NCBI GenBank assembly: GCA_028683855.1
Contig: JAQUHA010000001.1
Span: 124,001-188,000 of the forward strand
From: Desulfuromonadaceae bacterium
GTDB lineage: Bacteria > Desulfobacterota > Desulfuromonadia > Geobacterales > Pseudopelobacteraceae
Length of the DNA: 64,000 bases
Direction: 5' to 3'
Positions 56,860-63,701 of this stretch are shown in pieces. The notes below the pieces were generated by a model. That model was not told the origin of the DNA. It saw nothing but the letters and a program-made list of their open reading frames with translations, and ran no database searches. Every line of letters begins with the position of its first letter. The first letter of the stretch is position 1. A program made the position numbers and the translations under genes.

Positions 56860-57387
56860 ATGAGAGTATATCTTCTTGTAATATTACATATACTGTTTCT
56901 TGCGTCTAATGCAGATGCGGGTAGAGTGATTGAAGGGGTTGTAAAGATTGTCTATGATGGTGACACCGTTCAGCTTCTAACCCGCTCCAACAGCCGGCTT
57001 AAGATGCGTCTGTACGGCATTGATGCCCCGGAAATCAGAAAGCCTGATAAGCCGGGGCAGTCTTATGCCGACAGATCAAAAGTTGTACTAAAATCCAAGA
57101 TTATGGGGCGGCGTGTTTCGGCGGAAGTTGTTGATGTAGACCAGTACGAGCGGGCGGTTGCTATAGTTCGTTACTCGGGAAGAGATGTTAATAGGGAGAT
57201 GCTTGAAGAGGGGATGGCGTGGGCTTATCGTAAATATCTTCAGTCGCCATACGAATCAAAATATATCGACAGCGAGAACAGAGCCCGTCTCCGGCGGGCT
57301 GGACTATGGAGGGATGCAAATCCCAAAGCACCATGGGATTTCAGGCATGAAGTTAAAAGGAAAAAACAGAAAAGATATTGGTATTAG
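56860..57387 (+). CDS. Exported thermonuclease (SNase)-like protein
   Basis: Signal peptide; VVKIVYDGDTVQL, RLYGIDAPEIRKPDKPGQSYADRSK, DVDQYERAVAIVRYSGRDVNREMLEEGMAWAY; start abuts the preceding stop (TGAATG). Confidence 0.92.
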   Translation: MRVYLLVILHILFLASNADAGRVIEGVVKIVYDGDTVQLLTRSNSRLKMRLYGIDAPEIRKPDKPGQSYADRSKVVLKSKIMGRRVSAEVVDVDQYERAVAIVRYSGRDVNREMLEEGMAWAYRKYLQSPYESKYIDSENRARLRRAGLWRDANPKAPWDFRHEVKRKKQKRYWY

Positions 57388-57401: not shown

Positions 57402-58223
57402 TTATCTGCGGTATTTTTTAGTCATATCCAGAATATGTTTTACGCGGGAAACCACTCGCAACGGCTGAACCGGTTTGGGGATAAAGTCGCTGAAACCGAA
57501 CTCCAGAGCTTTCTGCTCGTCTTCAGTTGATGCTTTTGAAGTCAGCATGATAATAGGGGTTTCCGATGTCATCGGATTAGCCCTTACCGCACGCAATAAG
57601 CCGTAACCATCCATTCGCGGCATGACCGAATCTGTTATGATAAGTTTCGGACGTTCAGATATTGCTATTTTCAAAGCTTCCAACCCGTCAGAAGCCAGCA
57701 AAACCTTGTACCCCTCTTTGACGAGAGCAATCTGTATAAGCGTTGCTATCGGCTTTGAATCCTCAACCACAAGAATTGCATCGCCACCCTCCGGACTGCT
57801 TTTCAGATAGTGAACTGATATGGCATCCAGAATTTCTCTGCGTGTTGCAAGAACCGGAATAACCTGAAGTCCTGTCATTCTGCTGAGCATCTCCATTGTT
57901 TCAAGATCAAACGGGTCGGTTATTGCGACTGCCAGCATGGAGTCCTTCTGGCGGAGAGGGAAAGCAAGTTTCTTCATAGCGAAATCAGATGGGAGCATAT
58001 CAAGCAGCTCCTGCGGATATTCGTGGTCAACGAAATTTTTTATTGTTTTAAAATTAAACTGTTTGGAGAGAGCCCCTACCAGCTCTTCTTCTGTGATGAC
58101 CCCCATCTCCTCCAGAACAATCCCCAAACGTTTTTTTTCAGATTTTTGACGTTCCAGTGCCCGTTCCAGCGTCTTTTTGCTGATTATATCTGCTTCAACT
58201 AATATGTCACCCAAGTGCTTCAT
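57402..58223 (-). CDS. MshEN-type domain fused to a REC receiver domain
   Basis: N-terminal LGDILVEADIISKKTLERALERQ / LGIVLEEMGVITEEELVGALSKQF, then REC AILVVEDSKPIATLIQIALVKEGY...LIITDSVMPRMDGYGLL...IIMLTSK...FIPKPVQPLRV. Confidence 0.88.
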   Translation of the reverse strand: MKHLGDILVEADIISKKTLERALERQKSEKKRLGIVLEEMGVITEEELVGALSKQFNFKTIKNFVDHEYPQELLDMLPSDFAMKKLAFPLRQKDSMLAVAITDPFDLETMEMLSRMTGLQVIPVLATRREILDAISVHYLKSSPEGGDAILVVEDSKPIATLIQIALVKEGYKVLLASDGLEALKIAISERPKLIITDSVMPRMDGYGLLRAVRANPMTSETPIIMLTSKASTEDEQKALEFGFSDFIPKPVQPLRVVSRVKHILDMTKKYRR

Positions 58224-58240
58224 AAAACCTCGCCACTATC

Positions 58241-60343
58241 TTATTTCGGTGCGATGTACCCGATGCGAATGCCACCCCAATGTCTGTTATTAATAAAGAC
58301 CGGTTTTGACATATCATTCAGGATTTCTCCTGTATCCCGCCTATAGGTCTGGAGGAGAAAACCATCGGTGTTACGGGCGCAGCGAAGTCCCGTTCTATCA
58401 TTGAACATCCGTTTGGTGCGGTTATTATTCTTGTCAGTTTCCGGATCACCAGTTAACGGTTTGGTGTAGCGCAGATTATGAGTCGGTACATAACCATTGT
58501 TGTCAATAAACAGTGTAAACAGTATGCTGCTGTCGCCACGATTAATAATTGATTCCTGTATCGGTGATATCTCTCTGTCAAAAAAAGCATCGAACTTAGT
58601 CGTGAATTTTTGAGGATTCGTATTAGCTATCGGCAGATAGTTTCTGTCAAAAAGACTTTCGATAGAAATTGTGTTGTTTCGGAGAGCTTTTTCTATAACT
58701 TCATGGAATTGTGACTCCATATCACGTAAGCAACTCTTTATAGTGTCGTGATAATTGCCAACCGAAAATTTGCCGACAGAGCTGTAAATCTGCTCAACAA
58801 CATCAGCAAAAGTGGCAAAACCCTCACTTGTGCGCTGCATCATATTGTATGTCTCTTCAGCGCTGTTGGAAACCAGATGAATCATCTCTGAAATATGATT
58901 TGTGGTAGCATTCTGCTCCTCTGACGCAGTAGCAATCTGCTCAATCATCACCCGAGACTCGTTAGCATGGTTCTTTATGTTTTCAAGGCTGTTACGAGCT
59001 TCCTCAGCTTTGCAGAGACCCGTCTGCACCAGAGAGCTTTCCGTTTCAATCATATTTGCGGCGCTGCTGCTGGTTTTCTGTATATTCGCCACCACTTTTT
59101 TAATCTCGCGAGTAGATGCAGTTGTTTTCTCCGCAAGTCCCTTTACTTCACTCGCAACGACGGCAAATCCCTTGCCGGCATCACCGGCTCTTGCCGCTTC
59201 AATAGAGGCGTTAAGTGCCAGCAGGTTGGTCTGGTCAGCGATATCTTCAATAAGAACAACCATCTCTCCGATATGTGTGGAAGCTGCTTCAAGCTCGCGA
59301 ATTATAAGCAACGTATCATTTACACTGCCGCTTATCTGCTGCATACAGTTCCACGTCTCCTCAACAACCGCCATGCCGCTGTTTGCAGCATCATCAACCG
59401 CATTGGAGAGTGATGCCGCGCGATGAGTGTTCAGTGTTACGTCGTGGATTGTCTGTGCCATCTCTTCTGTAGAGGTGGCAACGGTCAGGGTCTGATCCTT
59501 CTGATCCTTTGTCATTTTTAGAGTTCGCTCGGTACCTGCAGCAAGTTCACATACGTTTGTCCCTATCAGGCAGGTTTGTGAATACAGATCCGAAAAGGTG
59601 ACGCGTATTTTTTCGGTGAGGTGATTCACCTCTTCACCGAGTCGACCTATTTCACAGGTTGTCCTGATATCCATCACTTTTGTCAGATCGCCTTCGCTTC
59701 CTGCTAGATCACCCAGCTGTTTGTACAGCTCTGTTATCTGCTGGACAACCGTGCGATTGAAGAAAATGTACAGAGTTGCGAGCATTGCAAAAAAGAAGAA
59801 CAGACCGACTGAAGACATCACAAGAGTTAGATGCAGAGCGGCGGCGAAACCATCTTCCAGAGAGGTGGTCAGAATTACCCCCCCTAAATATTTTGCCTCG
59901 CTTTTGTGACAGGTTCTGCATCGCTGCTCATTCTCCAAAGGGAGTGCCAGATCAAGAAACCGTTTCCCGCCGCTGCTTGCAGAGAGCTCCTTAGGTTCTC
60001 CCGAAGATATGGCGGAGCGTATCTCATCATTTGTTTCACTGCCGCCCCACTCTTTCCCTTCTGCATTATAAAGCCTTATTCCGGCAACGCCCCCTTTAGC
60101 TTTTATTTCGGAAACGTATCCAGAAAAGTCCTTCATATCACCTTTAGCCATCTGATTAAGGATGTCGTGGGTAACTGTAGAGGCAAGCTGGCGGGCATTT
60201 TTTTTCTGAAGCTCAATTGTCGCGGTATATTCAAGGTAAATTGAAAGAATGCCGAGACCGGCAAAGCCGACAATCAGTGTTGCGGCAATAATGAGTACAA
60301 TTTTTCGGGAAAGACTGGATTTAATCATAACCATCCCCATCAT
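58241..60343 (-). CDS. Methyl-accepting chemotaxis protein with a periplasmic CxxCH motif and extra C-terminal domain
   Basis: TM1, periplasmic region with [22 protein letters not shown]2, HAMP, signalling hairpin ([43 protein letters not shown]), then about 170 aa of additional sequence. The exact start codon is uncertain. Confidence 0.92.
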
Positions 60344-60572: not shown

Positions 60573-63134
60573 ATGAAAAATAAGGTATTCATCTGTGTCT
60601 TTTTGATTCTAATGTGCTATTGTGACTCCCAAATGGAAACTCAATTTACCTCTGACTGCCGCGCTCTCATGCGCCATGAAATTGACTCTGCAAACGGGAA
60701 CGAAGTGTTCTTCATTGGTCGCACCAATGTTGATGGTATCGTCTTTGAGACGGAAACTATTGCTCGTGGCAGTAAAGTCGCAGTGCCTGCCATAATAACA
60801 CGTGCGTCTGAAGGTGATGTTGTGATTCATAACCACCCTACCGGCGACTTGACACCATCTTCTGCCGATATGGATATTGCCTCCGTTTGCGGCAATCAGG
60901 GGATTGGATTCAGCATTATCGACAACACCGCCTCCCGTTGTTATCAGGTTGTTTCTCCGCATACCGAAAAAAAGGGGGAGTTGCTCTCTCTCGAAGAGAT
61001 CGGGCGGGTTTTTGCTGGCGACGGAATGATGGCTCACCTGAAAGGGTATGAGCAGCGAGATGAACAGGTCAGGATGGCGTTTTCTGTCGCCGAAGCTTTT
61101 AACAGGGATCGGGTTGTACTTGTAGAGGCCGGTACCGGCACAGGTAAATCTCTGGCATATCTGATCCCCTCAATTCTCTGGGCAACCCGTAATAATGAAC
61201 GAATTGTTGTATCAACGAACACAATAAACCTTCAGGAACAGTTAATCAGAAAAGATCTCCCCTTTCTCGCACGCAACTCAAAAATTGATTTTAAAGCCGT
61301 TCTGGTTAAAGGTCGTAGCAATTATGCGTGTCAGCGCAAACTTGAACACGCAGAGGCAGAACCCTCACTTTTCCCTGATGAATCGTCTGCTGAACTGACA
61401 ACCATCATCGAGTGGAGTCATAGCAGCAAAGATGGGTGCCGGAGCGATCTGGCTTTTACACCTCAAACCGGCACCTGGGAGGAGATATGCTGTGAGGCGG
61501 ATCAGTGTGCCAGATCCCACTGCAAATATTTCGGAAGTTGTTTTTTTTATCGTGCAAGGCGTGAATCATCTGCAGCAAGAGTTCTGGTTGTCAATCACGC
61601 TCTTCTCCTTTCAGATATAGTTCTTAGAAAAGAGACAGGTTATGATGCTACCGCAATTCTTCCCCCGTTCACCCGTCTTATTTTCGATGAAGGTCATCAC
61701 CTTGAAAATGTGGCAACCAGTCATCTCTCGCTCACCATTACCCGCAGCGGGATAGTCAAACAGCTGCAGCGACTTGTTCCGCAAAAGAGCAATAGAGCAG
61801 GTCTGCTCACCATAATATCCTCCATGATTACACGATTCCTGCCGGAATCTCAGGAGGGGCTTTATGCCGAGCTTTCAGGCCTGCTTGAAATGCATCTCTT
61901 TCCCAAGGCGCTTGATTTAACAGGCATAACAGATCAGACCATGGATTGGCTGGCTTTTTCCATTGACCACCACGGTAAAGGGGATCGCGGTCGCGAACAG
62001 AAACTGAGAATAACTTCAGAAGTCGAAAAAACCTCGTTCTGGCTGGAATGCCGTCAAAAACTTCACCTGCTGGCTGACGCTATCGGTGACTATGCCTCTG
62101 CACTCCGAACTCTTGTTCAGCGTTCTAAAGATCTTCCTGAGAGGCTGCAGGAGAAACTTGCAGATCAGCTGCTGGATACCTGTGGAATAGAGGGGCGTTT
62201 GCAGTCCATGGCGGACTCGCTGCTTTTTTTTACAACCGAAGCAGAGGGGTACTGCCGATGGATTGAGATAAGAAAAAACATTCGTGGAGTTCAGGCGCGA
62301 CTCAGCGCCGCCCCGCTGGACATCTCCTCTCAGATGAAGGAGGCAGTCTTTGATAAAATAAAAACCATAATCGTAACATCCGCAACCCTGACAGTAGGTG
62401 GAGATTTTGGTTACCTTAAAAAGCGGACCGGTTTCTCTCTGCTCCCTAAAGCGCGGCTTGATGAACTGCAACTGGAGTCACCGTTCAATTATGCGAAACA
62501 GGTGTTTGTAGCTGTGCCGGAAGATATGCCCGAGCCTACAGGAGAGGGGTACAGAGACGCTCTGGAGAACCATATTCTGACGGCGGTAACACTATCGCAG
62601 GGGGGGGCTTTTATCCTCTTTACCTCATACGATTTACTCAATAGAGTCTATCAGGCGCTGCAGCCGAAGCTTACCCGTTTAGGTCTGGCTGCCCTGAAAC
62701 AGGGGGAGACCGGACGTCATGCCCTTCTTACCAGGTTCCGTAATGAGGGTAATGCCGTGCTGTTCGGGACTGACTCGTTCTGGGAGGGTGTAGATGTTAA
62801 AGGGGAGGCGCTGCGTCTTGTAATAATCGCAAGACTCCCTTTTCAGGTTCCGACGGAACCTGTGCAGCAGGCTCGTGCCGAGAAGATAAAGAGTGATGGA
62901 GGGGATCCTTTTCGTGATTTTTCTGTGCCGCAGGCGGTCATAAAATTCCGTCAGGGTTTTGGTCGTCTGATTCGCAGCCGTGATGACAGGGGGGCGGTTC
63001 TCATCCTCGATAAACGTGTACTCAACAAAAGTTACGGGAGAATATTTCTTCGCTCACTTCCGGATACTGAGATTGTAAGAGGCGGATCGGATGAAGTTTT
63101 CGGCAGGATGGAGAAATTTTTCAACCCTGCCTGA
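60573..63134 (+). CDS. JAMM/JAB (MPN+) domain fused to DinG/XPD-type Fe-S helicase
   Basis: JAMM HNHPTGDLTPSSAD; helicase LVEAGTGTGKSLAYLIPSILWA, Fe-S type cysteines ICCEADQCARSHCKYFGSC, LIFDEGHHLENVA, ATLTVGG, GTDSFWEGVDVKGEALRLVIIARLPF, QGFGRLIRSRDDRGAVLILDKR. The start may be ATG 60633 instead. Confidence 0.9.
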   Translation: MKNKVFICVFLILMCYCDSQMETQFTSDCRALMRHEIDSANGNEVFFIGRTNVDGIVFETETIARGSKVAVPAIITRASEGDVVIHNHPTGDLTPSSADMDIASVCGNQGIGFSIIDNTASRCYQVVSPHTEKKGELLSLEEIGRVFAGDGMMAHLKGYEQRDEQVRMAFSVAEAFNRDRVVLVEAGTGTGKSLAYLIPSILWATRNNERIVVSTNTINLQEQLIRKDLPFLARNSKIDFKAVLVKGRSNYACQRKLEHAEAEPSLFPDESSAELTTIIEWSHSSKDGCRSDLAFTPQTGTWEEICCEADQCARSHCKYFGSCFFYRARRESSAARVLVVNHALLLSDIVLRKETGYDATAILPPFTRLIFDEGHHLENVATSHLSLTITRSGIVKQLQRLVPQKSNRAGLLTIISSMITRFLPESQEGLYAELSGLLEMHLFPKALDLTGITDQTMDWLAFSIDHHGKGDRGREQKLRITSEVEKTSFWLECRQKLHLLADAIGDYASALRTLVQRSKDLPERLQEKLADQLLDTCGIEGRLQSMADSLLFFTTEAEGYCRWIEIRKNIRGVQARLSAAPLDISSQMKEAVFDKIKTIIVTSATLTVGGDFGYLKKRTGFSLLPKARLDELQLESPFNYAKQVFVAVPEDMPEPTGEGYRDALENHILTAVTLSQGGAFILFTSYDLLNRVYQALQPKLTRLGLAALKQGETGRHALLTRFRNEGNAVLFGTDSFWEGVDVKGEALRLVIIARLPFQVPTEPVQQARAEKIKSDGGDPFRDFSVPQAVIKFRQGFGRLIRSRDDRGAVLILDKRVLNKSYGRIFLRSLPDTEIVRGGSDEVFGRMEKFFNPA

Positions 63135-63606
63135 TCTTTTTTTTCGCAATAAAATTGAAACATTGAAAATACATAAGGCAGGTCAGTAGAAACGAGAAGA
63201 TTGTTCCTGCAAGAACCAGCAACGCTCCGGGAGCTTTTTTTGAATCCGGAATAAGTGTTGCGAAGACCAGAAAGAAGGCAACACCACAGAACTTCCAAAG
63301 ATCGCTTATCATCCTTTTTTTTCGCAGAGCAGCGAGTTCTGCTGTGGTGAGTCCTGAACGACTCCCTTCTATTTCAATGCCGGCATCGCGTCCCGCCAAT
63401 CGGTAAACCGGATAAAGCAGCAGCAACTGCACAACGACCGCCGAAATTATACTGCTGTAGAACATTTCCGTTCTGCCGACTGAATCGAAGCGCCCCTGTA
63501 ATGCAATCGCGACAACAACCAGCAATCCTGTCAGGATGGTTTGTACTATGCGGTAGATCATCATCTGCCGGTTTAGTCTCTTGAAATCCGCACTCGCCAT
63601 TGACAT
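63121..63606 (-). CDS. Small integral membrane protein of unknown function
   Basis: Several hydrophobic TM segments; CTGGAG upstream of ATG 63606; 3' end overlaps the helicase 3' end by 14 bp. Confidence 0.65.
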   Translation of the reverse strand: MSMASADFKRLNRQMMIYRIVQTILTGLLVVVAIALQGRFDSVGRTEMFYSSIISAVVVQLLLLYPVYRLAGRDAGIEIEGSRSGLTTAELAALRKKRMISDLWKFCGVAFFLVFATLIPDSKKAPGALLVLAGTIFSFLLTCLMYFQCFNFIAKKKIRQG

Positions 63607-63701
63607 ACACTCCAGAAGATATTTATAACGTAATCCGGCGCGCAAGATATCAGAACACCTTTAAATGTACAAGGATTCAAAAAGGGGAGAAGTACTTAAA
63701 T

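Follow-up and report, generated by a model that had tools for sequence, protein, structure and literature searches.

A RadC-like DinG, joining a RadC-type JAB/JAMM domain to a YoaA/DinG-type Fe-S helicase, as the only DinG/YoaA-type helicase in a Geobacterales genome

In the window (the whole 64,000-nucleotide stretch of DNA analysed here) we identified a RadC-like DinG gene on the chromosome of a Geobacterales bacterium, which has no other DinG/YoaA-type helicase. In the protein a JAB/JAMM domain and an Fe-S SF2 helicase share a single reading frame, as the initial annotation had proposed, and both parts have Pfam matches (Table 1). The combination of RadC and DinG is already published and standard in Geobacter and relatives: RadC-DinG/RAD3 fusions were cited by Iyer et al. 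2017 (PMC5512222), and ‘RadC-like DinG’ is one of the ten DinG subgroups of a 2025 review (PMC11981726), which models the Desulfuromonas soudanensis protein, lists the conserved E, H, H and D as a putative metal centre, and reports HolC to be absent from organisms that carry this subgroup. The window protein has in common with the subgroup the N-terminal RadC-like domain, the YoaA-like Fe-S DinG helicase and the bacterial lineage, and is its ortholog by each feature tested, with no difference found; the review names four site residues (PMC11981726), and here the JAMM serine is invariant too. Our additions are small, namely the near-universality of the fusion in the class, the lack of a second DinG-type protein, the compatibility with a single origin, and a dead-site homolog in another genome of the phylum (G328).

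Table 1. Features of the RadC-like DinG gene and their positions in the window
Feature	Position	Strand	Basis and remarks
CDS of RadC-like DinG protein, most likely	60633..63134	+	833 aa, stop codon included; start is Met21 of ORF 60573-63134
RadC-like JAB/JAMM domain	60633..60956	+	PF04002 above cut-off and AlphaFold2 model; end approximate, after last predicted strand
JAMM glutamate E44 in NEVFFIG	60702..60704	+	invariant in 56/56 class orthologs
JAMM motif HNHPTGDLTPSSAD, predicted metal ligands H86, H88, D99, plus S96	60828..60869	+	invariant in 56/56 class orthologs
Walker A AGTGTGKS, motor domain 1	61128..61151	+	read directly; invariant in 26 orthologs
Fe-S cluster region, Cys253, Cys312, Cys317, Cys323	61329..61541	+	four cysteine columns invariant in 26 orthologs
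DEGH box (motif II)	61686..61697	+	read directly; DEAH-type in homologs
Helicase_C_2, motor domain 2	62577..63065	+	PF13307, E 5.5e-50
QGFGRLIRS (motif VI)	62952..62978	+	read directly; largely invariant among orthologs

The initial annotation had placed the start at 60573, the first position of a plus-strand ORF (60573-63134) that runs for 853 codons without interruption. We moved it to Met21 (60633), because this residue is kept in 54 of the 56 class orthologs aligned (the codons before it are not conserved) and in several orthologs a stop closes the frame 2-7 codons before the equivalent position. Judged by this comparison, translation almost certainly begins at Met21, and the first 20 codons of the ORF are probably untranslated.

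The N-terminal domain belongs to the RadC branch of JAB domains rather than to the isopeptidase branch, by sequence as well as by fold. The Pfam RadC model (PF04002, gathering cut-off 22.1 bits) scored 24.9 bits in the whole protein and 29.1-29.4 bits in the domain alone, and also matched all 26 diverse orthologs searched. The JAMM spacing (HxH-x7-S-xx-D at 60828-60869) is exact, the E44 region was aligned by hhalign with the KEYF segment of the same genome's canonical RadC, and all five site residues (E44, H86, H88, S96 and D99) are invariant throughout the class alignment (56/56); of 16 further homologs from elsewhere in the phylum, 15 retain the whole set, which makes 71 of the 72 compared overall. 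The full JAMM signature with an upstream glutamate, which had been read from the letters of this stretch, is thus borne out both by a JAMM-family match and by the conservation of its residues. The JAB part is conserved to the same degree as the whole protein (mean column identity 68% vs 66%). The AlphaFold2 models were confident for both the JAB domain (pLDDT 88.6, pTM 0.73) and the full-length protein (pLDDT 86.0, pTM 0.77). In fold searches the best PDB match of the JAB model was RadC (2QLC, E 1.9e-6), followed by COP9 CSN5, bacterial BubCD and Rpn11 (all isopeptidase-type), with the dsDNA deaminase 9K3E ranking lower and the TM-scores of the matches being moderate (about 0.4-0.5); the full model best matched E. 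coli DinG (6FWR, E 8.3e-40), and thereafter the exonuclease-fused S. aureus DinG (9II8/8ZEF) and XPD-type helicases. RadC proper (PF04002; C. tepidum 2QLC) belongs to the same JAB branch and has the same HNHPxGxxxPSxxD signature, but in its canonical form it stands as a protein by itself, extended at the N-terminus; the genome under study holds one such canonical RadC as well (229 aa).

The body of the protein is covered by Pfam DEAD / ResIII / Helicase_C_2 matches, and the P-loop (Walker A), the Fe-S domain with its CCCC motif, the DExH box (DEGH), motif VI (QGFGRLIRS) and Helicase_C_2 were all found, so that, by its motifs, it is a complete YoaA/DinG-type Fe-S SF2 helicase, in agreement with the initial annotation. 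From the helicase family we infer an Fe-S cluster, 5' to 3' polarity and a role in repair. The closest unfused helicase type is E. coli YoaA, with NCBIfam YoaA as the best model at 573.8 bits, a score that falls short of the curated cut-off for YoaA (680); YoaA differs in lacking a JAB domain and in working with HolC. ExoDinG (S. aureus DinG, 8ZEF/9II8) resembles the window protein in bearing a catalytic domain on the N-terminus of a DinG helicase, but the domain is a DnaQ-type exonuclease where the window protein has JAB, and the S. aureus protein is described as being without a full Fe-S site and without helicase activity (PMC11981726). A link to CRISPR type IV, raised by PADLOC matches, was ruled out (Csf4 model 116 bits vs a curated cut-off of 400, and no recurrent neighbours).

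A survey of the class, with the segment from the JAB domain through the first helicase motif as the query, gave matches in 265 of 277 genomes at E<=0.001, of which 258 reached E<=2e-12. Most of the places listed fall within a single open frame that measures about 840-1030 aa, and shorter frames occur mostly on fragmented assemblies. With strong matches in 258 of 277 genomes the fusion is near-universal in the class and a core gene there. The initial annotation's guess of an architecture that is conserved in the lineage, and not new, is supported. In the phylum sample the JAB profile separated sharply a set of 36 matches (E<=6.5e-41, nearly all in long frames) from weaker ones, the gap extending down to about 1e-9, and nearly all of the latter are RadC-sized proteins. 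Among the best 80 of 507 relatives, which are Geobacterales/Desulfuromonadales-type or unresolved delta-proteobacterial, the nearest belong to Geobacteraceae, Oryzomonas, Trichlorobacter, Pelotalea, Geomonas and Geotalea.

The genome under study encodes exactly one Helicase_C_2 protein, the RadC-like DinG, which is its sole DinG/XPD-family helicase. Across 197 genomes of the phylum, those with the fused protein likewise show a single DinG-type gene (in G517, in pieces on two contigs), and the other matching genomes mostly have an unfused protein of about 630-720 aa. The phylum relatives without JAB are either unfused YoaA-like or DnaQ-exonuclease-fused DinGs, and in the relatives without JAB that we inspected from a related class (that of G328), DnaQ motifs read from the sequence (DLETTGLDP, HNAAFE and HRALDDALDTL) occupy the same N-terminal place. 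In the helicase tree the RadC-like DinG groups with E. coli YoaA and the unfused YoaA-like proteins, and lies separate from the DnaQ-fused DinGs. As a tree with all JAB-bearing proteins held as one clade was not rejected (p-AU 0.50), one fusion event for all of them is possible on phylogenetic grounds. Furthermore, tblastn found no JAB relatives on viral contigs, plasmids gave no match, and all of the phage matches listed begin at query residue 133 or later (i.e. in the helicase only); there is no hint here of a mobile element as carrier of the fusion.

The lower-scoring group of the phylum sample contains one clear exception, a frame of 1185 aa in G328 (L170, G328:C4; JAB-profile E 4e-9), which has G, R, R, E and E at the five JAMM positions, and has thus lost all five residues, with Walker A, the DEAH box and the Fe-S cysteines intact. 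Seven other aligned JAB-bearing members of the same class keep the JAMM residues. Since L170 nests inside the JAB-bearing group on the helicase trees, it is best read as a pseudo-RadC DinG that would have lost its JAMM site secondarily. Pseudo-exonuclease DinGs, a parallel case, are described in the 2025 review, the accessible part of which makes no mention of a pseudo-RadC version (PMC11981726).

The gene upstream (58241-60343, minus strand), which is divergent, encodes a chemotaxis-type receptor carrying a haem-binding-like CRTCH motif, and is adjoined by a gene that joins an MshEN domain to a response-regulator receiver domain (57402-58223, minus strand). Farther upstream, a Staphylococcal-nuclease-like ORF with a signal-peptide-like N-terminus (56860-57387, plus strand) directly abuts a peptidase U32-like ORF, its first base following that ORF's stop codon. 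Downstream lies a convergent gene (63121-63645, minus strand) that has a 14-base overlap with the helicase gene's end and encodes a small membrane-type protein of 174 aa, for which there was no Pfam match. Because its neighbours are divergent and convergent, respectively, the RadC-like DinG gene is probably transcribed alone. Among 26 ortholog loci we found neither a widely conserved gene neighbour nor a conserved operon, the commonest neighbour being the convergent small membrane-type protein (11 of 26). A conserved element, TGTGCTATnGT, precedes the ATG by about 9-10 bases in the upstream regions of many same-genus loci (aligned regions L004-L032; in the window, region 60613-60632 and the ATG at 60633), and in most of the loci having it the element is itself directly preceded by a terminator-like hairpin with a T run. 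The element resembles an extended -10 element, whose position would give a nearly leaderless mRNA. Searches upstream for LexA-type boxes with the delta-proteobacterial pattern GGTT-N2-C-N4-G-N3-ACC and two other patterns gave stray matches only, in 3 loci, and therefore no sign of SOS control.

As to function, the reading we favour, although we would put it slightly below an even chance, is that the JAB domain processes nucleic acid exposed by the helicase; we place it first because of the RadC family to which the domain belongs, its helicase partner, and the exonuclease that holds the same position in related proteins. The Fe-S helicase would load on single-stranded DNA where replication structures are stalled or damaged and translocate 5' to 3', and the RadC-type JAMM site, in which two His and an Asp would hold one metal and the Glu would activate water, would hydrolyse the nucleic acid exposed by the motor, in place of the DnaQ exonuclease of ExoDinG. 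The narrower proposal that the JAB domain is itself a nuclease or a nucleotide hydrolase is more doubtful, and we know of no JAB domain that acts as a nuclease. For the RadC branch, the groove for the ubiquitin tail has been predicted to be absent and a nuclease-like role has been proposed on a positional argument (PMC5512222). Points against the processing of nucleic acid are that the reported DALI neighbours of the RadC-like domain are metalloproteases and not nucleases (PMC11981726), that our own fold search lists CSN5, BubCD and Rpn11 after RadC, and that normal sensitivity to DNA damage is reported for radC mutants of E. coli (cited in PMC11981726).

The same fold matches would suit a JAB domain with metallopeptidase or isopeptidase activity, by which DNA-bound or DNA-crosslinked proteins would be trimmed on their encounter with the helicase; the fusion would then be a helicase-coupled crosslink-repair protease. 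The characterised JAMM enzymes named in PMC5512222 and PMC11981726 are all peptidases or isopeptidases, and the E, HxH, S and D found here match the JAMM motif exactly. We nevertheless consider this unlikely, given that the domain is RadC-type with the predicted lack of a ubiquitin-tail groove (PMC5512222), that the 26 loci, without a widely conserved neighbour, offer no conjugation partner, and that nothing ties the protein to adduct repair; three E2 families had no match in the genome, but they had none in any of the control genomes either. The initial annotation had suggested that the helicase removes or processes protein adducts during unwinding, which is possible, yet it drew no support from a RadC-type domain without a conserved partner and with a DnaQ exonuclease at the same place in relatives. 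None of our results gave peptidase chemistry an advantage over chemistry on nucleic acid.

Still less probable, in our estimate, is that JAB serves mainly as a docking, DNA-guiding or regulatory module of an ordinary YoaA/DinG helicase, with its chemistry secondary or absent. The G328 homolog, nested in the intact group with its helicase and Fe-S residues preserved, fits such a role, as do the published pseudo-exonuclease DinGs (PMC11981726), and since this one homolog keeps the helicase with all five JAMM residues lost, cutting by JAB would not be indispensable everywhere; the retention of the five residues in 71 of 72 homologs, however, points to maintained catalysis. Lastly, the modest Pfam score of the lone JAB domain (29.4 bits) could raise the suspicion that two adjacent genes were joined by an annotation or assembly artefact, to which we give practically no credence: the genome survey, with the same unbroken frame in a large number of separate genomes, refutes it, and the fold match to RadC is independent support for the domain.

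If the JAB domain is indeed a nuclease or nucleotide hydrolase, the RadC-like DinG would be a helicase-nuclease built on a deubiquitinase fold, and this would explain RadC domains generally. The natural dead-site homolog in G328 offers a ready comparison for JAB function. RadC proteins are very widespread in bacteria but have no established activity. The version that is covalently tied to a DNA helicase of a well-understood type, and that Geobacter relatives have as their only DinG-type protein, provides a direct way to test the target of the RadC/JAB site.
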